Shown: piece by piece, positions 12,963-27,339 of the stretch | How the letters are laid out: each line of letters starts with the position of its first letter | How positions within the stretch are numbered: position 1 is the first letter of the stretch | Assembly: GCA_032718865.1 (NCBI GenBank) | Contig: JALUTQ010000028.1 | Span: forward strand, 124,001-188,000 | Origin: Tilletia caries | Taxonomy: Eukaryota; Basidiomycota; Exobasidiomycetes; Tilletiales; Tilletiaceae | Direction: 5' to 3' | Length of the DNA stretch: 64,000 nt | Made by a program: the position numbers and the translations under genes | The notes under the pieces: model-generated | The model's database searches: none | Seen by the model: the letters and a program-made list of their open reading frames with translations, nothing else | Told to the model about the DNA's origin: nothing

Positions 12963-14385
12963 GTGAGTATGTGTAAGGTTTCCCAACTACAAGAGAGCAA
13001 TCGACCTAGTAGATTCGGTGTTGGACAGTCCACGTGTAGTACCGCTCGTTGTATGGAGACAGAAGTGACACGCTGCTAGAACTTTGGCCTATGTCTACTG
13101 GGTTGATCACTGATCTAGATGTTAGTAGTCCTACAGGAGGTGTGGTGTATAAAAGTAATAAAGTGTATGAGACTAATTGTTGAAACTTGATGAGACTCAG
13201 ACTTCACACGTTTGACTTAACTCTGCAATGTTATGTGATTGCCAAGTTAGGTGTCAAGGTGTGTGAAAGTATAGAGCTGGGGGGACAGAAAGGGAGGAAA
13301 GGGCGAGAGGGGCGCTCCTTTTATACCTTTCAGGCTTCCCTGGTGCGCAGCAGTGCGCAGCAGTGCGCAGCACACTGTGCAGTGCGAGCTGCAGAGATGT
13401 TGTGTGGCGAGAGCGCGTTTGAGTGCTGGTGACTCGAGTAAGTCACAGCCACGTCAAGTCGCACAGTCACCATTAAGCATCCATGAGTCAAAACCCAGTC
13501 ACTCCTCTTGGCACAACTTAATCACAAACAGAGTCATCGGGACATATTGATGACTTTAGACAGAGAGACTGGGAGAGCTTGAGTCAAGAAGCAGCAAAAG
13601 GGAATGGGGGAGTCGAGAGAGCCAGAGTGGCAGACAGAGAGTGAGAGGGGATGAAGCGGTGAAGTGGTGATTGCGCCATACGGCTACCGTGCGGGTGGTG
13701 CACGGGAGACGGAGTTAGAGATAGGGGCAAGTCAGTGAAAGGAGATGAAACGGTGATTGCGGCATTGCGCCCTGCAGGTTACGTGCGGGTGGTGCACGGA
13801 CGCTCGACGCGCGTCGCCGGAAATAGCGGCTAGTGGGTGGTGAGTGAGGAAATAAACGTGAGGCAAAAAGAATTGATAACCAAAAAGTCTCCGACAAAAG
13901 GATTCGAACACACGACCTTTTTGTCGACACAAATTTTTAGTCAACCATAATACCAACTAGACTATGCAGTCATAAGTTGGAAGCAATAACCAGTTGGTCA
14001 TTATACACCACCATGCTCAAACCCACTATTCACAAAGTGAAGGCGCAACAACAATTCATCATTGATGCCCACACTAGTATGAACATTGAGGGAGACTAAT
14101 AGGATATGTGAGAAGTAGTAATCTTGTATAATTGTAGGATATGGAAGAGTGGCTGCGAGTGATCAGCACACTCGACCATAATCCTTACAGTATGAGCTGC
14201 AGTCCCTCCCTTTCCCTTCCCCCTTTCCCTTCCCGTGCACTTCACTCTCGTTTGCTTGGAGTCTTGATGATGCTGGATGCATGCGTTCCATCTTCCGATT
14301 GATGGCGGCGGAAGCGGGGCTCAGCGTAACGGCACAAGAGTGTAGGCGTATCAGCTATTGCGGTAGGCGCCAAGGGCTCAGGTCT
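12963..14385. other. Repeat-derived intronic sequence of the helicase gene
   Basis: The long helicase intron starts with GTGAGTATG at 12963. Up to the LTR element it holds no ORF of interest. There are short internal duplications: GTGCGCAGCA tandem units at about 13350-13370, and two related blocks at about 13655-13710 and 13738-13802 that both include CGTGCGGGTGGTGCACGG. A tRNA-like block is listed separately. It looks like decayed repeat sequence of unknown class. Confidence 0.4.
13882..13972 (-). other. tRNA-like pol III promoter sequence (tRNA pseudogene or SINE head)
   Basis: On the minus strand a box A match, TAGTCTAGTTGG (13953-13964), is followed by a box B match, GTTCGAATCC (13900-13909), and then a TTTTT terminator-type run (13882-13886). 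The acceptor and T-stem do not pair properly (GTGTG opposite CCTTT), so it is not a working tRNA as read. A degraded tRNA or the head of a SINE are both possible. Confidence 0.35.
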
Positions 14386-14390
14386 CACTC

Positions 14391-14646
14391 TGTACTAGAT
14401 AGACTAGCAGTGCGAAGCAATATGCAACAAGTGAAGAGTGAGTAATTGACAAGGAGAAAGAACTAAGTACAAGGATGAGCTCGGGAAGGGAAAAGATGAG
14501 GAGGAGAGAGAATAGCGTGGGAAATGTGGAGGTACTGGTGTTGCTATGCGGAGGAGTGCGAGTGTGAGAAAAGGAAAGGAAACGAAGAGGAAGAGGAAGA
14601 GAACAGATAAGATAAGATAAGAGCCACATGGACCTCGTCTAGCACA
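14391..14646 (-). repeat. 3' LTR of element 1
   Basis: This is the 256-bp terminal repeat nearest the left flank. It begins TGTACTAGATAG and ends CTAGCACA on the plus strand, and is almost identical to 16762-17018, with A4 in place of A5 at one run. Confidence 0.85.
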
Positions 14647-14705
14647 TCCCCACCGACAAAAGACGACTGTCCCGAGTCGTGGTTGAGGAATGCACCGGAT
14701 GCGGC

Positions 14706-16453
14706 TCAATGGATAGGGAAGAAAAGAGGCGCAAACGAGTCCTGGCTGAAGAGGCTTCGAAGTATCTGCGCGTGGTGTGTGAATGGGCGATAGAGCTGAG
14801 GATGGGCGAGGCACGGATTCGACGTCCATAGCCATGACACACAAGGCCTGAAGGAAAACAAAGTCGGAAGGTGATGAGGTGAAGAGCTAAGTGGCGGGGG
14901 AGGAGCGAAGACCGACGGAGCAGCGCTACAGTCGCCATAGTGATTGTATGGAAGAGCTGAGACCGTACGATCGACATCCAAAGCAAGGGAGCCAGGAGTG
15001 CGCACGGATGATACGGAGGCGGTAGTCGGCGGAGCTGAGTCTTCATGTATCCATTGTCGCGCAATTCTCCAAGCCTCTGCGACGCGAGCAAGAGCATGAT
15101 TCGGAGAAGAGGGCCGATATGGAGAGCTGATCGCTGTTGGGGCAGCCACATGCACGGGCGGACGAGAAGGAACTTGTGTGGCGGTAAGAGCAGCCGATGC
15201 TGCATCCATAACCTCCTGTCGCAATAGCAGCCACGCTGATCGGATGCGAGCCAGCGCACAGTCGACGGATCCAAGCCTCGCCTCGCTGTGACAGGTACGC
15301 GTCGGAGCTTCTGATGTGGGGGGGGGCAGGAGATGATAGGGTCGGTGCAGACGTCACTTGCGATGACGAAGGTTTCGCGTTCTCACTGCCATGATTGCCA
15401 GGCGCGGCTGAGGGACTCGGTGCGGTTGAATGCGGTGACGAGGGCGCGAGTACCGAAGTCGATACCGAGGTGGAGGAGACCAAAGAGCCGGACACCGTTT
15501 CGGCAGAAGCAAGTTGGGTCGCGTCCTGAAGAATGCCCTCATGGTCTGCTTTGGTGCGCGGACGCAATGGATCGATGACTTCGCCAGAAGAAGCGCAGTC
15601 CGGAGGCGGTAAACCAAGGACCGTCGACGAGTGTGTTGTTGAGATGATGCATGGTGGAGAAGAGAATTTGGGCGTTGCGGCGGTAGCGGAAGCGAGGCAA
15701 GCAGGTGGTGGATCGTACGCATGGGAATGTTGTGCGATCAGTTCCGCGTAAGAACGAGACACGACGGGACGACACTCGGTCGCAGAGCTGGTGGTATGGT
15801 CTATTGCGGACGACGAGGAGGTGCTGATGCCGGGGATGCTCGTATGAGATGGGAGAAGCGAGTCGGAGACCGGTACTGGAGTAGTGGGAGAAGCTGGAGA
15901 CTGCAGTACCGAAGTCGGTACCGAGGTTGGTACCCGACTCGCCGAAAGCGTCCCGGCTTTGTCACGGCTCGCTGACTGTCGGCTGGGTCGATCCTGCGCC
16001 TTGTCTTCCCGAAGGTCTTTGAGGAGCTTGCGTACACCGGGCCAATTCGTGGTCGTGGGTGCTGGAGGAGGAAAAGAGATGCGAACGCGAACAGCGCACT
16101 CCGTTTCGAAGCGAAGACCGTCCTTGAAGTATTTGCCAAAGCGCAGCTTGTCGCCGTCCGAGAGCGCATGTACACGGTCGCCGAGCAGCCGTCCGTCGAT
16201 GCACACCGAGTCAGAATGCCAGGGGACGGACTTGAGCGTAAAGGAGGAACCATCGTAACGAATGAAAGCCTGGTCGATCACCAAGGCAAAAAGAGGGAAG
16301 AATGGCGTTGTCCGCAGCGGGAGCGGGGAGGAAGTTCAAGCCGGGGACGTGGCCATCGAGTTCGAGGGTGGAAGGACGGTCAAAAAAAATGAAGGTCTTG
16401 GGGGCAAACGACTCGCCAGAGCCGGTAGACGAGAGACGAAGCTCGGCGTGCAT
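14706..16453 (-). pseudogene. FHA-like protein of LTR element 1, frame broken twice
   Basis: Reading on the minus strand from an ATG at 16453 (MHAELRLSSTGSGESF), the frame runs into an FHA-like segment. This contains IDQAFIRYDGSSFTLK, then CIDGRLLGDRVHALSDGDKL and RFGKYF, which fits the strand-loop pattern of FHA folds (an NG-like turn, then L.DGD.L.FG). A long serine/threonine/proline-rich middle follows. A C-terminal part has two related motifs, LARIRSAWLLLRQEVMD and LARVAEAWRIARQWIHEDS. Two single-base homopolymer differences break the frame: an A5/T5 run at 16288-16292 and a G9 run at 15318-15326. One base fewer at each would join all parts. They may be real lesions or sequencing errors. 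FHA domains bind phosphothreonine; whether the binding arginine is present here I could not establish. The start may lie upstream of 16453. Confidence 0.6.
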
Positions 16454-16761
16454 GTTGCGGGCGGGATGGCTTGTAGTTGGGGAGGGCCGGACACGAGAGC
16501 ACTGGAGGAGAGCTGTGGAGATCTTGGGGCGGAGGGAAGGTTCGACCTCGACGCACGCGCAGCGGAACAGCAGCGAAAGCGCGAGCAGAAGGGCGAGGTG
16601 TTCGTGTGACCTGAGAAGAAAATAAGGTGAAGGTCGAAGGAGGTCAAGAAAGGGACGATGACAGCGGTGAGAAGGTGGGAGGGTAAGGGAGAAGGGTGGT
16701 GTCTTGTGGGTCGCTCGGCCTGCGTACTTCGCTCAGCGGAGCAGATCTACTCTCATCACCA

Positions 16762-17018
16762 TGTACTAGATAGACTAGCAGTGCGAAGCAATATGCAACA
16801 AGTGAAGAGTGAGTAATTGACAAGGAGAAAGAACTAAGTACAAGGATGAGCTCGGGAAGGGAAAAAGATGAGGAGGAGAGAGAATAGCGTGGGAAATGTG
16901 GAGGTACTGGTGTTGCTATGCGGAGGAGTGCGAGTGTGAGAAAAGGAAAGGAAACGAAGAGGAAGAGGAAGAGAACAGATAAGATAAGATAAGAGCCACA
17001 TGGACCTCGTCTAGCACA
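16762..17018 (-). repeat. 5' LTR of element 1
   Basis: This is the 257-bp terminal repeat. In element orientation it carries TCTTATC-rich sequence near its start and pyrimidine-rich sequence downstream, and is followed at once by the putative primer-binding site. Confidence 0.85.
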
Positions 17019-17344
17019 CACTCACTCCTCAGAGATGAGGAGCATGTGGATGGCTTTGGAAGCATTGTGATCAGTGATCTGGTGCAGCTTCAGGGCTTAG
17101 CGCGGGCGGAAATCGGAATTGTCATGAAGCACAGACTGCGGTACACCGTGCAGATCTACCTTTGGGCTTTGACCCATAGTCCATCGTGTAGTCTGATGCG
17201 CACAGCTGCAGCTCTGGCCTCTGCTACGTTAGACGCTGGGATCTTCATTTTCCCCATCTATTCTTATTGCTATTTGCTGATAACTTACTCTGCACCCCGA
17301 CTCAATAGAACCGTTCTTCAGGCCACACGACGCCAGCACATCTA

Positions 17345-18955
17345 CAGTGGCGAGCAGAAATGGCCGCATGTTCTTCCAGTACACACATCTCAGTCAATTG
17401 CACCTCATTTTCCCTATACTACCACGTTGTGACTTTTTTGTGACCAAAGCACCAGATAGTAGCTTTTAGAAACTGCAACGCGCGCACAGGTCGCTGGACT
17501 ACGTCCGCGACGCCAGCCCCTTTAACCTGAGAGCCCTGTGGCCATTTTTGCACCTCCCCCCCTCACCATCCATCCCAGCTTCACCATACCATATAGTAAG
17601 TGCCGCAAACTGCATGTAAGAGGGCTATTGGGACTGACAGATGCTTTTTCGCCTGCAGAACGGCAATACAATCAATGAAATCTTTAACCCCTGCAAAGAA
17701 AGCTCATATTGCGGCTGAGCTGCGGAAGGGCAAGTCGAGCCGGGCCGTGGCACGTCAATGTGGGGTCAGCAAGACGACTGTGAAGTGTGAACTCCCTGAG
17801 ATCACAGCATAAAGATATACCGCATGCAAAGCCGAAAGGCAGGCCGCCAAAACTCGACAATCGGGACAAATCCGCTCTCAAGCGTGCGATAAAGACGGGA
17901 AAAGCAAACAATGCTCGTCAGGCTCTAAAAGAGCTGCAGGCAGCGAAGGGCCTCAAAGTCTCTGTCTGGACGGCACGGCGGGCGCTGCGCTCTGTGGGAA
18001 TGCACCCTGTCGTCAAGAAAAAGAGACCCTTGATGACCCGGCGGTACAAACAAAATCGGCTCCGCTTTGCCCTCAAGCACGTTGAGTGGACCCCGGAAGA
18101 CTGGGCACGCGTCATATGGACGGACGAGACTAAGATCAACCGCATCTCTAGTGATGGGCGAGAGGTGGTCTGGGTCGAGAACGGGTCGGGCCTCAGCGAA
18201 CGGACGATTACCCCCACCGTCAAGTTTGGGGGCGGCAACATCATGGTGTGGGGCTGCATGACATGGTCTGGCCCGGGCAAAATAGAGCTCGTTCAAGGCC
18301 GCATGAACGCTCAGCAATACACCGAGATCCTTACGAAAAACCTCGTTCCCGTTATCGATGCGATGTCACTGCTCCCAGACTCTCCGGCGCGCGACAAGAT
18401 CATCCTGCAGCAGGATAACGATCCGAAACACACCGCAAAATTGGCAAAAGCATGGTTCAAGGCCCACAATATCACCCCCTCGAGTGGCCTGCAAACAGTC
18501 CGGACCTTAATCCGATCGAACACCTATGGAACACCCTCAAGCGACGCCTTCACACCTATTCGACCCAACCCAAGGGCGCCCACGAGCTGTGGGAGAGGGT
18601 TCAGGTAGAATGGGAACGACTTCCGACTGATACGTGCAAGGGGCTGATCGAGAGCATGCCTAGGAGGTGTGCAGCGGTCATTAGGGCCAAAGGCGGCAAC
18701 ACAAAGTATTAGGTTTGTTGGTGTTTCTCTCTGGCTGTGGGTCTTGGTGCAAAATGGCCGAATGAACAAACAAACCCTTTTCTACTTTTTCTACGTCCTC
18801 GGTCGAATTCAACAGCTGGAAATGCCAGCATAGAACCTTGATACGTTGCTTTCCTCGGCCCCAATAGTTGGCTATGGGTTTGTTATTTTGGAGTGGTCTT
18901 TCTCGTGGTGTTTATGGTTTACTTAAGAACATGCGGCCATTTCTGCTCGCCACTG
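17345..18955 (+). mobile_element. Tc1/mariner element copy A
   Basis: The element is 1611 bp with 31-bp perfect terminal inverted repeats (17345-17375 and 18925-18955) starting CAGTGGCGAGCAGAAATGGC. It is flanked by TA at 17343-17344 and 18956-18957, the standard Tc1/mariner target duplication. It sits inside a coding exon of the RecQ-like helicase. A near-identical copy in the opposite orientation is at 29627-32025. Confidence 0.92.
17674..18712 (+). pseudogene. Tc1 transposase (DD34E), frame broken
   Basis: The ATG at 17674 starts MKSLTPAKKAHIAAEL, followed by a helix-turn-helix (SSRAVARQCGVSKTTV). A second DNA-binding part has PKGRPPKL, an AT-hook-like GRPPK. The catalytic triad is visible as VIWTDETKINR, QQDNDPKHTAK and SPDLNPIEHLW. 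The spacing between the second D and the E is 34 residues, placing it in Tc1 rather than mariner. The frame is interrupted near 17780-17790 and again near the CCCCC run at about 18475, so no single frame covers it. Copy B shares both of these breaks. DDE transposases cut and paste the element as a dimer bound to the inverted repeats. Confidence 0.85.
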
Positions 18956-20652
18956 TACGACGAGCTGATCACAAATCAGGCTCGAATTATCTTTGCGTCG
19001 CCTGAAGCGCTGATTTCGAACCCTACTGTGCGAGAGATTATGAAGAACGATGTCTTCCGTTCTCGGCTTCAGTGCATCGTGGTAGACGAGGCCCACATTG
19101 TGGAGACGTGGGGTCTGACACCATCTGTCCGGACGAATCTGCCATTCCGGCCGCTGTTCAGCAAAATCCAAACTCTGCGAGCGCTTCTAGGTTCCCATCT
19201 GCCCCTTCTTGCTATGTCCGCAACCCTCCCACCATCCACGACGCGATCGATTCTACCACTGCTCGATTTTGGCTTCAAAGACACCTTCACGATCGACGTG
19301 GGGGTCAATCGTTCCAACATCTTTTATCACGTTCTTCCGCTTCGACACGCAGTGACGACTTATCGAGACATTCTCCAGCTCTTCAACCAAAACTATGCTG
19401 AGCGGAGTGACGTTCCGAAGACCCTGTTGTACGTCAAGACCCGGGCTGCCGCCTATGCCGTCGCTGACCTACTGGAACAGCATTTCAGTCGAAAGGGTCT
19501 GGGAGGTATTGTGCTCCCTTTCACCTCCTTAACCTCAGCTTCATCGAAACAGCAAATCTTGGGCGTCCTTTTCCAGCCTGGAGGAGTGCTCCGGATTCTG
19601 ATATCGACTGAGGCGGGAGGATTGGGCATCGACCTCCGCGACATTCAACAAATCGTGCAGTATCTTCTTCCGGGTACTGCGCTTGAGTTGTGTCAGCACT
19701 TTGGCAGGGCGATGCGAGACTTGGCTCGTGGTGGAAACGCAATTCTAATGGCTCCTTCTCGAATTCTGATCCAGCCGGGTCAAAGCGGCAGCGTCAGTCG
19801 AACCACCACAAAGCTCAGGCAGGACCTCGACACGGGAATAAAAGCTGTCACCGGCGGCGAGCGATGCATCCGTAAGGCGCTCTCCCACGCGGCACGGCTC
19901 TGCCCTTCCACCGTACGCAGCCTGCTTTCCGACCTCGAGCCTGTGACCGGAGGTCTTGCTGCTGGAAACCTTCGTTGTTCGGTCGCTCCATACAGCCTTC
20001 TTCGCCAGAAACACCAACTGGCCACCACCTCATGTGCGCATGACGAGGAGGCGGCACCCCCGGGCTGCTGCTCCACGTGCTCTCCCGACCTCACCATCGC
20101 AGCGTTTCCAAACTTCTTCAATGCAGCACCTTCAGCTCCTGCCCCCGAATCTGAATGCACCACCACAGGAACTCGCAGCCGGGCACCTCCTGCCCACACA
20201 GCCTTTCTCCCGCTTCAGACCGACCTAGCTGAGGTGCTACACGACTTGCGACTGTCCGTTCACCGCTTACACATCTTCCCCAACTACTTCCCTCAGCGCG
20301 CAGCACTCCCGGAGCCTTTGGTCTTCCGCCTGATCACCCAAACCGGTCGACTGCTCGATGAGTGTCGTCGCAGTGGCACCACCAACATCGAGATATCAGC
20401 GATCGATACCCTTCTAGGAACTCTTGCGACGCAGCTCCCTGATCAAATGCGGGAGCCTCTGTCCTCTTCCCTCACCACTTGGGCTCAGACATGTGTTCAA
20501 AAGTACCCAGGTGTTCTCAACCACATCAGCAACAGTGGCTCATATCTGTCTCATCCTGCTCCTAGGCCACTGCCTCAATAGACAACAGACATTTGATTTG
20601 CTACAAGCTGTCGGTGCTCAGATACCTCTAGGAGTATGCGTTGATGCATCGT

Positions 20653-23600
20653 TCATTCGTCCTCGCCGCTTTCATCGCTTTCCGAGTCTACACGTTCCCT
20701 TCGTGACCGTAGTCCCGCTTCCGCTGCCCTGAGGTCCTCGTCGCTGAGATCGAATCCGGGCTGCTCTGCTTGACGTTGACCATCTTCGTCCTCTTCAGAC
20801 TCTGGAACGGCACTGTTGTCCTGGTCCGCGTCCTGCTCGTTGGCCATCTCGAACACATCAACATCCCGCGTTCTGATGTCCCGAACCTTGCTTCTGAAAG
20901 CGTCCAGCGCGCCGCCGATGAGCTTGAGGTATCCGAGCTCAAGAAGATCATCGGCGTTCTTGCTTTCATCCCGGTGGGACCTGTTGACGGAGTCCCACAC
21001 TTGTCGGGCTTGTTGCATTGCTGACATCTTCTCTTTGGACGTCGACCCTTCTCCCTTCTCCTCCCCAGATGTCGTCCTCGTGGGCGGCCGACAGGTCGTA
21101 ATCCCATACGCTGTCGTGTCTCTGGCGACGAGCAAAATGTCGACCTGCTGCTTCCTTTTCCGCTTTCTTCGCTCACTCAGGCCGATTCCCAAACACAGTG
21201 TCACGCATTGAGAAAGTGTCTGGCCGGCGCCGACGAAGGCTGAAATCTTATCCTCCAATCGGACGATGACGTGGTCCGTAGCATGAGGTACATCATAGTC
21301 CTGCATGAGAGAATGAAAAGTGTCAGCGGACAGCGACCTGGTGTGAAATTCCACGTCTGAGGACCCAGCCAAACTCACTTTGATGCGGCCGTTGAGGATC
21401 TCCTGGTAGTGATCTGCTCCCTGCCACGAGCCAGCCTTCCCGCTCGTGTTCACAAGCTGTGCTGCACGTAAGGATTTTGCTATGCTGGGATGAACAGTAT
21501 CCTCCAGAATCCGGTCTAGGAGCAGAGATCCGTACTTCGTTTGGCCTGCTCCGTAGAAAGATTGGGCGAGAAACTTCTCCGTGGCAGCCATTCTTCCAAT
21601 GTCCCCATCCTGAACCGCAGCGCTGTATTCCCATCCCATCACACAGTCACGAAGAAACAGAACGGTGTTTACCCTGGCGCTGTCGCCAGCTGCCCTGGCA
21701 GTAGCGACCGCTTGTTGGGACATGTGCCGAGTATGCAAGTTGGCCATTGTGCGGAAAAGGTCTTGAGATGATGGGTTCCAAGTGTCGCTCGATTCGTCAT
21801 TCTCTTGCAGCTCCTTTCTAGAATGCCCAAATGAATCAGAAATGCCTCATGGTCACTGTAGAGTGCAGACCATCATCAGAGATACTCACTGTAGCATTGC
21901 GAGAAGCCGTCCTATCCAGACGCACCGCAACAGGCGCCATCCCTCCTCAAACTGCGGCTGCTTCATGTCGAGGTCCGTCTTCCCACGTCCGAGAGCTTGC
22001 CGCATACGCTCCAGAGATGTGGACCTATCCCTGTTGCTGTATTGTCGGAACATCATGTAAAGCCAGTTGAGGAGAAGATGCCATGGTCCGGAGACCGCAT
22101 AGATTCCTTCGAGTTGTCCCGACGGGTCTTGTTCCCAACGAGCGGCATGACATGCTGCATGGACATTCATGACCGTCAGCAGGTCGCCTGCGACGACAAG
22201 AGAATCTGTACCAGCTCCTTCTATCTTGAGCTCCGCTTTTGCACGTTTGAGGACCTCTTGAGTTCCCTCTATGGTACCCTCATTGACGTGCAGCAGCTTC
22301 ATCGGTACGGATGGCGTTTTGAATGGCGTTAGGGGCTGTATTGCGTGGATTTTGACCCTCCTTGACAGAGCTCCTCGTAGGGTCTTTGATCGTCTTTCCG
22401 ATATCTTCAGAAGCGGAAGCATTGCCTTGACCATGTGTATCTCGCAGGAGCGCCGCAAGAAGTCATCGTCCCCGAACGTCATGTCCATCGTCAACCGTTC
22501 TCGATCTAAGCGCAGTACTGTCTCAAGATCAGAGTGGGTAAGCGCGTGACATCCGGGAGAAACAGCAAACACAGTTCTGGTTGTGAGTGCAACGGGAGTA
22601 TTGGCTGCGGTTGTCTGTGTTGACGCATGGTGTACGGAGATGTTGATGTTGTCGAAAAGCAAGGTAGTCCGTCCAGGGTTGTCCTCCCGTAGCTGACACG
22701 CACGCTCCACAGCTCGGGAGGACATACCGTCCATCGCTCGGTGCACAGTGCGGTTCGAAACAATGATCCCGCAGCAGTTGAGGATGCGCATCGAAGCTGT
22801 CGGCACACGTTGTAGGCCGAAGACGATTCCCAAAGACATTTGAAATCGATTTGCCTGCTGCGTTCGTCCCGCGAGCACACAAGATGCAGCCGTCAGGATC
22901 CGCTGGTAGATAGGGGACGTGGCAGAAAGATGAAGATAGTCAGAGCCGGATATGCGGATTGGTGGCTAAATGCCAGACGTTAACAGACTCACTGCTTCTG
23001 TTCTACTCAACGCCTTCTCGTCCTCCTTGGTTCTGCTCCCCTCCTCATCATCATCCTCTCCGTCCTCTTCACCCTCTACTTCAACTCCTCTTTCCTCTTC
23101 GTCAACTTCCTGGCGTTGCTGCGGGGTGATGGCATTCTTGACTGCGTCGGACGTATCGTACGACGACCTCAGATCGGACATATGAGCCAAAAGAGTCATT
23201 GTTCGAGGCATAGTGTCGTTATAGAAAGATTGAATGTCTCGAAGATTGCCAGTCAACGCCTGCTCACTGGTCTCGTCGCTGAGGTCGGCGGTATGGGGGA
23301 CGCGAAGCCACTGGGACGATGCAGCTTTGGCGACTTCTCGAACGTACACGTCTTGTGAACGCTCCGCCATCGTATCGACAAAGCTCTTTCGTTGTTCCTC
23401 ATCGGCTCGAGATTCGACGGCGTCCCACACCTCGTTGACGAGCGTAGATGGCCCGTATGACGACAGATGCGTGTGGCTGCGCAGCCATTTCGTAGTGGTG
23501 AGCCTGACTGTTGGATTCGAAGAGCGTATAACACCTACCACGAATTGCTGGAAACTCAGATTATGTGCTTGAATTGTTTTGGTTATCTCAATGAGCTTAA

Positions 23601-23673
23601 GCTGATGCCGAGTTTGATCGTTCGACCCGTTCGGATGTGGTACTGATCCGGAAGGGGATGCAACATCTGTCAT
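20653..23673 (-). CDS. DUF6589-type protein, possible transposase-like enzyme
   Basis: The minus-strand exons are 22993-23673, 21890-22902, 21379-21817 and 20653-21300, summing to 2781 nt (926 aa) with all phases matching. The start is MTDVASPSGSVPHPNG. An acidic stretch (VEVEGEEDGEDDDEEG) precedes the core. The core contains TTLLFDNINISVHH, then VVAGDLLTVMNVHAACHAA, then GIYAVSGPWHLLLNWLYMMF, and later LRDCVMGWEYSAAVQDGDI with KFLAQSFYGAGQTKYGSLLL. The spaced DN, GDLLT and WH/FH motifs are what I associate with the fungal DUF6589 family, which is widespread in mushrooms and smuts, multicopy and of unknown function. The acidic C-terminus ends DSESDESGEDE. Multicopy occurrence and aspartate motifs suggest a mobile-element enzyme, which is inference. 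It is convergent with the RecQ-like helicase. Confidence 0.7.
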
Positions 23674-24433
23674 TGTATTGCTCGCTGCCTGTTTGCAAGA
23701 AAAAAATTGAAGAAACATAAGGGGTGAGAGGTCAACCATATTCTTGAGACGGGAATTGCAGCATAGAATCGAATATCGATAACGCACGATGACGGATGAA
23801 TTGTGATCAGCATCAGCGAGACAGCTGTCGAGAGAGTGGTAGAATGGAAAAAAAGAACATGAGTAATCAATAATGTCTGTCACGCCTTTGCCTTAACACA
23901 GAAAGAAACCCACTTACTCTCCCAAACCCCAATCCGTCACGACGTCTCCAAAGCAGGAAAACGATATTGGACCGAGCTTCAATGGCGTGCAGTATGAATT
24001 CCAACAGCAACTATCTGAGAGTGATTATAGACCATCGTCAGCGTGTGCGAAGGATTTAGAATAGACCAGATTCTCATTTGACACTCACTCAACGGAAATC
24101 ACGAGTCACGACACGCAAACAGAACCCACAGACCGCCCAAACCGCAGCGAGGACCAGGGCTACCGAGTTGTTTTGATTCTGCCTATCGTTATTGATGTAT
24201 GATGGGCGCGAGGGCATGTAGATTAGGCGAGGGACGCATAGAAGTAAGAACATAGGTCAGCTGTAGAGTCGTGACTTTGGCATGACGCCTGAAGGGGAGA
24301 AAAAGACAACACTCACGCGTCCAGGACTCGGCAAAACTAAGGCGACTAAGAAACTAAGACTATCCGACTAAGCCTTAGTCCCGACTAGACTAGACTATGA
24401 CTAAGGGTTTTTGGCATCCGACTATGACTATGA
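23674..24433. other. Interval ending in ACTAAG-type repeat
   Basis: The first 650 bp hold no gene that I can support beyond the probable 5' leader of the DUF6589 gene. From about 24345 the sequence changes to repeated ACTAAG and CGACTA words, into which LTR element 2 has inserted. Confidence 0.4.
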
Positions 24434-24438
24434 CTAAG

Positions 24439-24727
24439 TGTGCTGGTACCATATGGTGACCACCATGTGGCCAGTATCTTTGTGCTGGTACCATATGGTG
24501 ACCACCATGTGGCCAGTATCTTATCTTCCCATTCTTATCTCCTTTCCCTCTCTTTGCCACAATTCTTTGCATAGCAACACCAGTCCTCCACTTTCTCACG
24601 CATATTCCTCAGTCACATCTTTCACCCAGATCGCAGCACTCCCTTGTACTTAGTTTCCCTCGTCATTCATCACACTCTACTTGCTTTCACTTACTAGGTT
24701 GCCTATATTACAGGTACATCTAGTACA
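24439..24727 (+). repeat. 5' LTR of element 2, with internal 42-bp tandem duplication
   Basis: Two adjacent 42-bp copies (24439-24480 and 24481-24522) of a unit starting TGTGCTGGTACCATATGG open the LTR. The unit includes the palindrome ACCATATGGT. The rest is CT-rich. Confidence 0.85.
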
Positions 24728-24848
24728 TGGTGATGAGAGTAGTTTCGTTTCCCAACGCCTCATCAGCTGCGCGCAACGTGCCTTTGATCACTCTCCCTCC
24801 CTCACCCACCCTTCTTCTGCATTCCTTACCTTATTCTTCTTTTCCGCC

Positions 24849-26504
24849 ATGGGTCGCTCTTTCTACTTCCATCTCCACCTCATCCCCCTCACCGGCAGAA
24901 CCGACGGTCCCACCACATCTTGGCCGGCAGATGACAGCGGCCATTTTTTCATCGAGCCGTCTTCCAGTCCCGCAGCTCCTTCCACCTCCGAACTTCCTTC
25001 CAAGCAGGTTCGGATCAGCTTCTGCGCGGGCTCTTTCACTTTACACGATAGCGGTGACCGCAGTACCACACGCGTCAACGGCCGTTTCCTGGCCGCGGGC
25101 GCCTGCCGAGTCCTCGTACAGAACGACATCGTGGAGTTAGCCTGCACCGAAACCTCCTCCTCCTCCTCGTTCCGGCCCGCTCTCTCTTGCCGAGTCGACC
25201 TCCTAACTTCTTCATCTCCGTCGCTCGAGTTGCCTGGTCCGTATACCTTCAGTTCCTCCCAGCATGGCCCCCGGTATGCACAGCCACACGATCGGAGCCG
25301 AAGTCTTGATGACATGGCTCGGCACTTCAAGCTGTCGTCCTCCCCTTCGCCCTCTCGTCCTGCTCTCTTCACTTTCAGCGCCTGCACAGTTACGACTTCG
25401 CCACTCCTTCGTTCCATGTCCTCCGGACCGGATCCATCCACTTCCGGGCCCACATGTGCCTCGTCCGTCTCGTTCCGGTATGGCGACTTCATAGACGCGA
25501 CTCGTGTCATCGCCGGCAGCAGCAGCTCGTCCATTGCTCCCCCGGACACCTCTCCTAGCACGCGTTGCGCTGCCATCAGTCCACGCGTGCCTGCGGGGGT
25601 CGTTGACTCGGACTCCACAAACACTCCGGTCGTCGTGGCATCGAGCCTTCCAACTTCTTCGACCACCACAACCCCAGATTCATCCACCGATCATTACATT
25701 GCCACTCCGGATACTACAACGACCTCCCCTTTGACGACAGACGCATCCGAAGGGGCTTGCGCATCAACTTTGTCGTCCCTCAGTCCGAGCAGCACTTCGG
25801 TACTGACCTCGGGACTGGGCTCAGTACCGACTTCCTCCTGCCCCAAGTTTACGACAGATCTCGGTGCTTTCGCCTCTCCTGCCGCAACTGAAGCTTCCAA
25901 TACCCCCATCGGAGCAGTTGAGTCGCTACCCTGCACCCATGACGCATCCCGCGATGATATTGTCATTTCAGATCCTACCTCGACCTCGACGGCGACGTCC
26001 GACGCGAAGAGGCTGCATGCTGCGGAAGTCGCGATCGACCGCGTTCGGACCGCCTGGGTGGATGCTCGACGCTGGAGCCTGACGGAGCCGCCGGCATCAA
26101 CGCACCCATCGTCGCTTGCGGACGTAATTTCACGCGTAGGCAGGGAATGGATGCGGGCTCGATCGTTTCTCGCAGCGGAAGAGGGCGACTCATTCGGACG
26201 GTCACCTTGTCGACCGCATCACCATCTCCAACCCGCTGCTAATCATGGTTCTCCTGCAGAAGTGCTGGATGCGCTGCAGCCGCTTCACCTGCGTTCGCCA
26301 GAATACCAACCCGTCGCCGCCAACCGCTTCACACCTCAGCATCAACACGCGCCCATTGCTTCGGCAGTTCAGCCCCCGACGGTGGATGACGTCCTGAAGA
26401 CGGCTACGCCTTCCATCAATCTCACGCCACGCCAGCTGTTTCCGCATCCGACCCCATCACTTTCCATCGCATCAATTCTGCCCAGCATTCATTTTTTACC
26501 GTGA
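24849..26504 (+). CDS. FHA-like protein of LTR element 2 (551 aa)
   Basis: I chose the ATG at 24849 (context CCGCCATGG), because the frame is also open further upstream into the LTR. The N-terminus is MGRSFYFHLHLIPLTGR. An FHA-like segment at about residues 50-110 includes VRISFCAGSFTLHDSG, then TTRVNGRFLAAG and VLVQNDIVELAC, comparable with the element 1 protein. A serine/threonine-rich middle of about 270 residues follows. The C-terminal part has AIDRVRTAWVDARRWSL and ISRVGREWMRARSFLAAEE, which align with the paired W-AR motifs of element 1. It has no cysteine-histidine zinc knuckle, no aspartic protease and no polymerase motif. FHA domains read phosphothreonine, so a role in docking to host kinases or chromatin is possible, but this is speculation. 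It is the only protein of its element and its frame is intact. Confidence 0.7.
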   Translation: MGRSFYFHLHLIPLTGRTDGPTTSWPADDSGHFFIEPSSSPAAPSTSELPSKQVRISFCAGSFTLHDSGDRSTTRVNGRFLAAGACRVLVQNDIVELACTETSSSSSFRPALSCRVDLLTSSSPSLELPGPYTFSSSQHGPRYAQPHDRSRSLDDMARHFKLSSSPSPSRPALFTFSACTVTTSPLLRSMSSGPDPSTSGPTCASSVSFRYGDFIDATRVIAGSSSSSIAPPDTSPSTRCAAISPRVPAGVVDSDSTNTPVVVASSLPTSSTTTTPDSSTDHYIATPDTTTTSPLTTDASEGACASTLSSLSPSSTSVLTSGLGSVPTSSCPKFTTDLGAFASPAATEASNTPIGAVESLPCTHDASRDDIVISDPTSTSTATSDAKRLHAAEVAIDRVRTAWVDARRWSLTEPPASTHPSSLADVISRVGREWMRARSFLAAEEGDSFGRSPCRPHHHLQPAANHGSPAEVLDALQPLHLRSPEYQPVAANRFTPQHQHAPIASAVQPPTVDDVLKTATPSINLTPRQLFPHPTPSLSIASILPSIHFLP

Positions 26505-26658
26505 CTTTCAGATCCCACGCATCGATTTTTCCTTCGCGCGCAATGGCTTCCATTCTCCGCTACCTTCCCTTCTCATGCGCCTCTGCTCATCCATGCTCAC
26601 TGAGGTACCTCAGCTCCACCACTACGACTCGGGACAGTCGTCTTTTCTCGGTGGGGCA

Positions 26659-26947
26659 TGTGCTGGTACCATATGGTGACCACCATGTGGCCAGTATCTT
26701 TGTGCTGGTACCATATGGTGACCACCATGTGGCCAGTATCTTATCTTCCCATTCTTATCTCCTTTCCCTCTCTTTGCCACAATTCTTTGCATAGCAACAC
26801 CAGTCCTCCACTTTCTCACGCATATTCCTCAGTCACATCTTTCACCCAGATCGCAGCACTCCCTTGTACTTAGTTTCCCTCGTCATTCATCACACTCTAC
26901 TTGCTTTCACTTACTAGGTTGCCTATATTACAGGTACATCTAGTACA
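26659..26947 (+). repeat. 3' LTR of element 2
   Basis: This has the same length and, by eye, the same sequence as 24439-24727, including the 42-bp tandem duplication. Confidence 0.85.
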
Positions 26948-26952
26948 CTAAG

Positions 26953-27339
26953 GCCCCGCCAGGTCCGATTATAGTCGGTATTAGTCTGTTAGTCAGACCC
27001 TTTTTTGGGTTTTCGTCCGGGCTGAGATGCTTGGAAGGTCCTCCTTTGCATTCACAAACTATTTCGAGTCGTGCATTTCGAATTAGTAGGTACACATAAT
27101 TGTGACAGATATCTCAGACTAACATCCGACGATTCGTCGGATTAGTCCGAGAAATAGTTTGACTTGTCCGACATCTGTGATCTGACTAACATTCGCATTA
27201 GCCGAGTCTCTATTACATAATGTGTTATGTAGTTATGTACACAGCTTTCCGGGTGTGGTACCACGTCCACCTCTGCACGTCCGCTTGCGATTTGCGAACG
27301 GTACGGGGGTCATACTCTTTATACGACGATCTCAGTACC
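26953..27339. other. Remainder of the repeat hosting LTR element 2
   Basis: No ORF. It contains TTAGTCTGTTAGTCAG and several TCCGACGATTCGTCGGA-like short inverted words. It probably belongs to the same ACTAAG/CGACTA repeat seen at 24345-24438. Confidence 0.3.

Follow-up and report, generated by a model that had tools for sequence, protein, structure and literature searches.

In a 64,000-nucleotide stretch of the genome of the wheat bunt fungus Tilletia caries (GenBank assembly GCA_032718865.1, contig JALUTQ010000028.1, positions 124,001 to 188,000; hereafter "the window," whose numbering is used for all coordinates given without a contig or locus name) lie two short elements, E1 and E2, that are bounded by long terminal repeats (LTRs). 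In place of gag-pol, each lineage encodes a single protein with a predicted forkhead-associated (FHA) fold, in which most of the phosphothreonine-binding signature has been lost. We consider it likely that E1 and E2 are helper-dependent, non-autonomous LTR retrotransposons and that the FHA-fold protein is an adaptor favoring the element's own RNA or cDNA. The anatomy of the elements, their family, purifying selection on the N-terminal part of the protein, the primer-binding site, and a covarying leader hairpin are read from the sequence; the fold is predicted, and the adaptor role is what we infer.

Two recent insertions from a divergent family

E1 (14391-17018, coding strand minus) and E2 (24439-26947, coding strand plus) each consist of an LTR pair within a perfect 5-bp target-site duplication (CACTC at 14386..14390 and 17019..17023 for E1; CTAAG at 24434..24438 and 26948..26952 for E2), and the terminal repeats of both have the TG...CA form of LTR retrotransposons. 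On its coding strand, E1 has a 5′ LTR of 257 bp (16762..17018) and a 3′ LTR of 256 bp (14391..14646), which on the plus strand begin TGTACTAG and finish TAGCACA; all 256 of 256 aligned bases are equal, with one additional 1-base indel. The 5′ and 3′ LTRs of E2 (24439..24727, 289 bp, and 26659..26947) are identical at 289/289 bases. Because the LTRs are near-identical within each element, both insertions look recent. The start of the E2 LTR (24439-24522 in the 5′ copy) is made up of a 42-bp unit present twice in tandem, in both LTRs.

On the coding strand of each element, the primer-binding site TGGTGATGAGAGTAG directly adjoins the 5′ LTR (16747..16761, minus strand, in E1; 24728..24742, plus strand, in E2). 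Near the other LTR, both carry a conserved purine-tract end (...CAGTCGTCTTTTNTCGGTGGGG), a 28-mer adjoining the 3′ LTR at 14648..14675 on the minus strand and 26629..26656 on the plus strand. Coordinates and LTR identity thus bear out a first-pass annotation of this DNA, which had read the TG...CA repeats, the CACTC and CTAAG duplications, a primer-type site, and a purine tract as marks of LTR retrotransposition. That annotation had also reported no reverse transcriptase (RT), protease, or integrase, and in agreement with it, Pfam gave no match to RT, protease, integrase, or gag in the E1/E2-family open reading frames (ORFs) tested. At Rfam gathering thresholds, no match was obtained within 14300-27100.

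The E2 ORF (24849..26504, plus strand) is unbroken and encodes 551 aa, with the FHA-fold domain at about residues 5-121, an RYGDF motif, and, near the C-terminus, two W..AR motifs that fall in predicted helices. The window copy of E1 is not a single open frame, and the start, the FHA core, and the helix motifs are spread over three frames of the minus strand. The start codon and N-terminal end of the protein (MHAELRL) are in an ORF at 16211..16453, in a third frame; most of the FHA-fold domain is in an ORF at 15046..16284 (homologues: the unbroken L003, and P0005) together with the motifs TTNWPGV..L..LR and SRSYAELIA; and both W..AR motifs are in a stop-to-stop frame at 14709..15353, which differs from that of the FHA part. 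Among the E1-type loci checked for frame (the window copy, L002, L003, and L004), L003 alone reads through, for 580 codons from Met. Assembly errors could be an alternative source of the one-base frame changes in E1. The earlier description of one protein per interior therefore holds for E2 and not for the window copy of E1.

Judging from searches of the genome (38.1 Mb in 40 contigs), E1 and E2 represent two lineages within a divergent and far more numerous family of this Tilletia. The primer site together with an LTR end occurs at 367 genome sites with up to two mismatches, versus 29 for a reversed control, and the 28-mer purine end at 50 sites with up to three mismatches, versus 0. The E2 protein alone has matches at 12 places, and the first 1610 bases of E1 gave 48 matches, mostly LTRs, with 40 of 298 candidates scored. 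The first 30 exact primer-site loci in contig order comprise 8 gag-like loci, 9 that are FHA-type or carry W..AR, and 13 unclassed within 1.5 kb; we assigned these classes by reading, and some of the FHA-type or W..AR loci are near-copies. The W..AR motif itself is carried by 8 of the 30 primer-site loci, two of which (L063 and L064) overlap, and by none of the reversed sequences, so that the paired C-terminal motif of the first-pass annotation is confirmed. Two LTR blocks, GCATAGCAAC and TTGTACTTAG, occur together in 9/30 loci, including the candidate helper elements L047 and L048.

Of 27 FHA matches in the genome (E ≤1), 16 adjoin a primer site, an LTR match, or a purine end of the E1/E2 family by comparison of coordinates by eye, and 4 of those 16 lie over the Pfam cut-off (C40:1783963, C10:124870, C7:2514135, and C40:603500). 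Homologue searches, in each of which the roughly 8,000 candidates with the most words in common were scored, returned only Tilletia proteins; the closest outside the window among the candidates scored belong to Tilletia controversa, T. laevis, T. caries, and T. indica. Regularly spaced tandem copies, arranged as if neighbors had LTRs in common, were seen at C32:812-821 kb, C33:760-766 kb, C22:647-654 kb, C28:751-760 kb, C3:556-563 kb, and C4:154-160 kb.

Predicted fold of the protein and selection on it

By prediction, the protein of the E1/E2 family has an FHA fold. When the modeled structures of E2 and of an E1-type protein were compared with the PDB, FHA domains came out as the best matches of both, with Rad53 FHA1 among those of the E2 model, and four sibling proteins pass the Pfam FHA cut-off (L026, L076, L077, and L078, two of them nearly identical). 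The FHA-like segment recognized at first pass is upheld by both results. Because the E2 protein alone falls under the Pfam cut-off (12.8 bits vs. 20.7), the FHA call leans on structure prediction and on the siblings. A search of the PDB by sequence gave no match for profile A3 and three marginal, unrelated matches for L026. Behind the FHA-fold domain, the protein plan continues with a low-complexity middle rich in S, T, and P, which holds short conserved motifs, and closes with the two W..AR motifs. Pfam hits to Cas_GSU0054, DUF4655, DUF7091, Ring_hydroxyl_A, and GPS2_interact were all under the cut-off and were taken as chance, as were matches of the W..AR model in the candidate helper L071 (11.2 bits) and in L051 (8.9 bits).

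Codon comparisons indicate strong purifying selection on the N-terminal portion of the protein, where the FHA domain lies. Rough Nei-Gojobori estimates of the ratio of nonsynonymous to synonymous divergence (dN/dS) were 0.13-0.22 in ten pairs over the N-terminal conserved part (the FHA domain, extended by the following 100 residues in E2-type pairs), two of the pairs repeating others since L030 equals L031 there. In the other two frames of the same pairs, pN/pS was 0.98-2.08. A middle stretch of L031 versus L032 gave a dN/dS of 0.60, without contrast to the other frames, and no ratio could be obtained for L030 versus L031, which are identical over 223 codons. The N-terminal ratios, which are not near 1, agree with the selected function that the first-pass annotation had proposed. 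They also bear on the idea that a host gene was captured as a passenger and is carried without function. Host FHA domains exist, and gene capture by LTR elements is known (PMC13317346, from an excerpt); however, selection between diverged lineages and the common multi-motif plan speak against a functionless passenger, which the low ratios largely refute and which we regard as extremely improbable.

The function that is selected does not appear to be the phosphopeptide docking suggested at first pass. The phosphothreonine-binding signature of FHA domains consists of GR, SxxH, and SSNGT. In an alignment of element proteins with three host FHA segments, which is approximate around the arginine loop, the GR arginine is present in 2/15 element rows, the SxxH serine in 3/15, the SxxH histidine in 4/15, and the SSNGT asparagine in 1/15. 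The host segments have the GR arginine, the SxxH serine, and the SSNGT asparagine in 3/3, and the asparagine of the [VI]NG turn is kept in 11/15 element rows. The E1/E2 proteins would thus have the predicted fold in common with Rad53 FHA1 and SLMAP but have mostly lost the signature, and because of this loss phosphothreonine binding is disfavored as the conserved function. An FHA domain that bound phosphothreonine on a host kinase substrate or a chromatin protein might steer integration or packaging, and the predicted fold, with Rad53 FHA1 among the best matches of the E2 model, would suit such a role; with the arginine, serine, and asparagine retained in so few rows, we judge it decidedly unlikely.

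Primer site, leader hairpin, and candidate helpers

Five tRNA-Leu-like genes have a 3′ end matching TGGTGATGAGAGTAG (anticodons read by eye), and the match of the E1/E2 primer site to the tRNA spans 13 bases and is longer in some siblings. No match was obtained with a tRNA pattern requiring an exact 5′ acceptor. By eye, the tRNA complementarity in L052, L068, L069, and L070 extends into the T arm or beyond and is longest in L052, at about 45 bases.

A Ty3-type element with the E1/E2 primer site exists in the genome, so that an autonomous partner of the kind envisaged at first pass is likely to be present. Among 100 listed exact primer sites, 18 are followed on their own strand, at a distance of 2.5-5 kb, by a member of a list of 150 RVT_1 matches; the control counts were 6 for the upstream direction on that strand and 0 and 2 for the opposite strand. 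Ty3-type pol was found in L071, L079, and L080. In L071, this primer site and LTRs some 270 bp long occur together with parts of gag, protease, RT, RNase H, and integrase in several frames; L080 is similar. The RT of L079, a locus downstream of the L069 primer site, has Ty3 as its best match among PDB sequences.

These candidate helpers allow a direct comparison of the FHA-type protein with gag. Their gag-region ORFs form one family, in which 28/28 pairs of 8 match at 1e-3 or better. In contrast, 30 FHA-type sequences, which include some duplicates and fragments, gave no match to the 8 ORFs at 1e-3 with a low-complexity filter; without the filter there was one, at 2.6e-4 (P0008 with L060). A helper-like Gag is rejected by the absence of filtered matches where all gag-gag pairs match, and the known gag protein that the first-pass annotation had allowed for was not encountered in this comparison. 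A further reading takes the ORF for a Gag that has diverged to an extreme degree, or for an accessory reading frame of an autonomous lineage, now extinct, that lost pol. The ORF does occupy the position of the helpers' gag, and Pfam is a poor test of such descent, since the helpers' own gag is unmatched in L071 and under the cut-off in L080 (17.3 bits vs. 24.1); as far as sequence comparison goes, the C-terminal part could yet be a Gag too diverged for BLAST. The predicted FHA fold at the N-terminus argues otherwise, and the direct comparison with helper gag-region ORFs lowers the odds further, leaving this reading very improbable.

In many elements, a stem-loop directly follows the primer site; in E1 it lies at 16703..16750 on the minus strand. 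Its loop is usually A-N-N-G-A, from which the E1 loop departs. The core motif of the hairpin, CGANNGAC, occurs in 15/31 distinct leaders, whereas shuffling left it in 0.56 leaders on average and in 4 at most. Across 14 leaders chosen for the core motif, pairing holds in 77.9% of cells, and in 32 cells both partners have changed, neither value being reached in any of 500 shuffles, although the structure was read off folds of the tested leaders, which favors that structure. Pairing was destroyed when the partner strand was slid. A covariance model applied to the window and to 44 of 78 loci identified 22 sites, each at an LTR or primer-site end by our reading. The E1 hairpin, a member of the training set, scored 47.0 bits (E 4.4e-10), and the hairpin was also found in L033 (an E2-type element, 2.2e-10), L022, L028, and L018, which are outside the training set and are not known near-copies. 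In the alignment of the 22 sites, three of five covariation measures beat all shuffles. The hairpin may have a role in packaging or dimerization.

Some further features of these elements and their surroundings were observed. In the likely helpers L079:362-3199 (minus), L080:1622-6202, and L071 (minus), RNase H looks split by integrase: an N-terminal half (profile ~1-52) follows RT, and integrase parts and an SH3-like domain (below cut-off) precede a C-terminal half (profile 29-88), an arrangement that in L079 forms one open 946-aa frame. Literature searches under narrow phrases found no account of a split RNase H; variation in the order of pol domains is described in PMC3248453, the excerpt of which mentions neither FHA nor Tilletia. 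A tandem unit, TCGGTACYGAC, recurs in many of the short elements (15905-15924 in E1 and, as an inexact match, ~25797-25830 in E2), where one frame reads TSVPTSVL by eye. Its core, TCGGTACCGA, is a palindrome, and TCGGTACYGACNTCGGTACT has 22 exact genome sites versus 0 in the control. The opening 1.5 kb of 8 helper loci showed no such tandem, and helper L071 showed no unit. Between E1 and E2, a Tc1/mariner-like transposase sequence was recognized by eye at ~17650-18710, with a similar piece adjoining L031, and a helicase-like, RecQ-like sequence with a VDEAH motif, also by eye, at ~18950-20300.

A proposed adaptor for the element's own RNA

Elements of the Ty3/gypsy type, which share the tRNA-Leu primer site with E1 and E2 and, at some loci, apparently also carry the leader hairpin, would most likely copy E1 and E2 in trans. 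The encoded protein would then be a protein-protein adaptor whose main targets are the RNA or cDNA of its own element copy, which it might, for instance, link to the Gag or integrase of a helper or to a host factor. Because a gene inside a helper-dependent element is under selection, a benefit in cis is the easiest account. A more specific form of the proposal, which we put forward tentatively as possible rather than probable, is that E1 and E2 are satellites of Ty3-type retrotransposons and that their own FHA-fold adaptor, without binding phosphothreonine, wins helper particles or integration machinery for their own RNA; as satellites, E1/E2-type elements would have their counterpart in satellite viruses with a gene of their own. 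Alternatively, the protein might counter host silencing or restrain rival elements instead of acting on the RNA or cDNA of its own element. That a diverse parasite lineage holds a selected accessory gene would be compatible with such a role, which is otherwise conjectural, but a benefit shared in trans would not keep the gene of each copy intact, and we consider this alternative unlikely.

Several observations weigh against the adaptor explanation. Mobilization in trans is deduced from common signals, the LTR similarity of the E1/E2 family to the helpers is short and weak, and the purine end of L071, the sole helper purine end read, differs. E1 and E2 depart from the tRNA at the base following the 13-base match, and ARAGORN, in its bacterial setting, called no tRNA in L072, the sole locus scanned. 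The covariance model did not find the hairpin in E2; among the 8 helper loci searched, it found the hairpin in L041, L069, and, weakly, L050, all three members of the training set, and not in L047, L053, L060, L066, and L071. Two of the five covariation measures were unremarkable, being reached by 102 and 73 of 500 shuffles. On the protein side, Pfam FHA gave no match in 9/10 proteins of one set, nor in L003, P0006, and P0007; the structure models have low confidence beyond the FHA part, and the E2 model as a whole scores low (mean pLDDT 39.1); and amphipathic C-terminal helices are not supported, with 1/13 seed motifs under 50 of 1000 shuffles. Further, synonymous divergence is near saturation (dS ~1 to 2.4), which makes the dN/dS values rough.

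Among known non-autonomous elements, terminal-repeat retrotransposons in miniature (TRIMs) are very short and without coding capacity, and large retrotransposon derivatives (LARDs) have a long non-coding interior. E1 and E2 resemble both in their LTRs, target duplication, primer site, purine tract, lack of pol, and presumed movement in trans, but their family encodes a conserved, selected protein (in E2, a 551-aa ORF in a 2.5-kb element). Other non-autonomous LTR elements keep some protein, as described for TR-GAG, which keeps the GAG domain, and for BARE-2, which appears in a reference list under the title "life without gag" (PMC10552921, in excerpt); E1 and E2, in contrast, have no recognizable gag or pol. 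Bs1 of maize is an LTR element with host gene segments (PMC13317346), but it is one element with gene fragments, whereas the family of E1 and E2 has diversified around one shared protein plan, on which purifying selection acts. In bdelloid rotifers, LTR elements with ORF3 have acquired non-envelope ORFs, according to the abstract (PMC5408684), but keep gag and pol, whereas in E1 and E2 the extra protein is the only one found. The newly named non-autonomous LTR elements Helenus and Ajax are described, again in excerpt, as using small-RNA-derived sequences for transcription (PMC12859917); E1 and E2 are marked by the FHA protein instead. Transposons of Tilletia have been surveyed by superfamily, with no mention of such FHA elements in the excerpted text (PMC9172201). 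Among the titles and opening lines of abstracts listed, our searches found no described LTR element with an FHA protein and without gag-pol. Thus, as far as these sources go, TRIM, LARD, BARE-2, and TR-GAG do not fit E1 and E2, which have no described equivalent in the searches.

With a primer site, a leader hairpin, a likely helper, and the protein identified, a preference for the element's own RNA becomes testable. A diversified family without gag-pol that retains one protein under strong purifying selection would show that dependence on a helper does not stop an element from keeping a gene that benefits itself, in contrast to the usual view of non-autonomous LTR elements as passive passengers.

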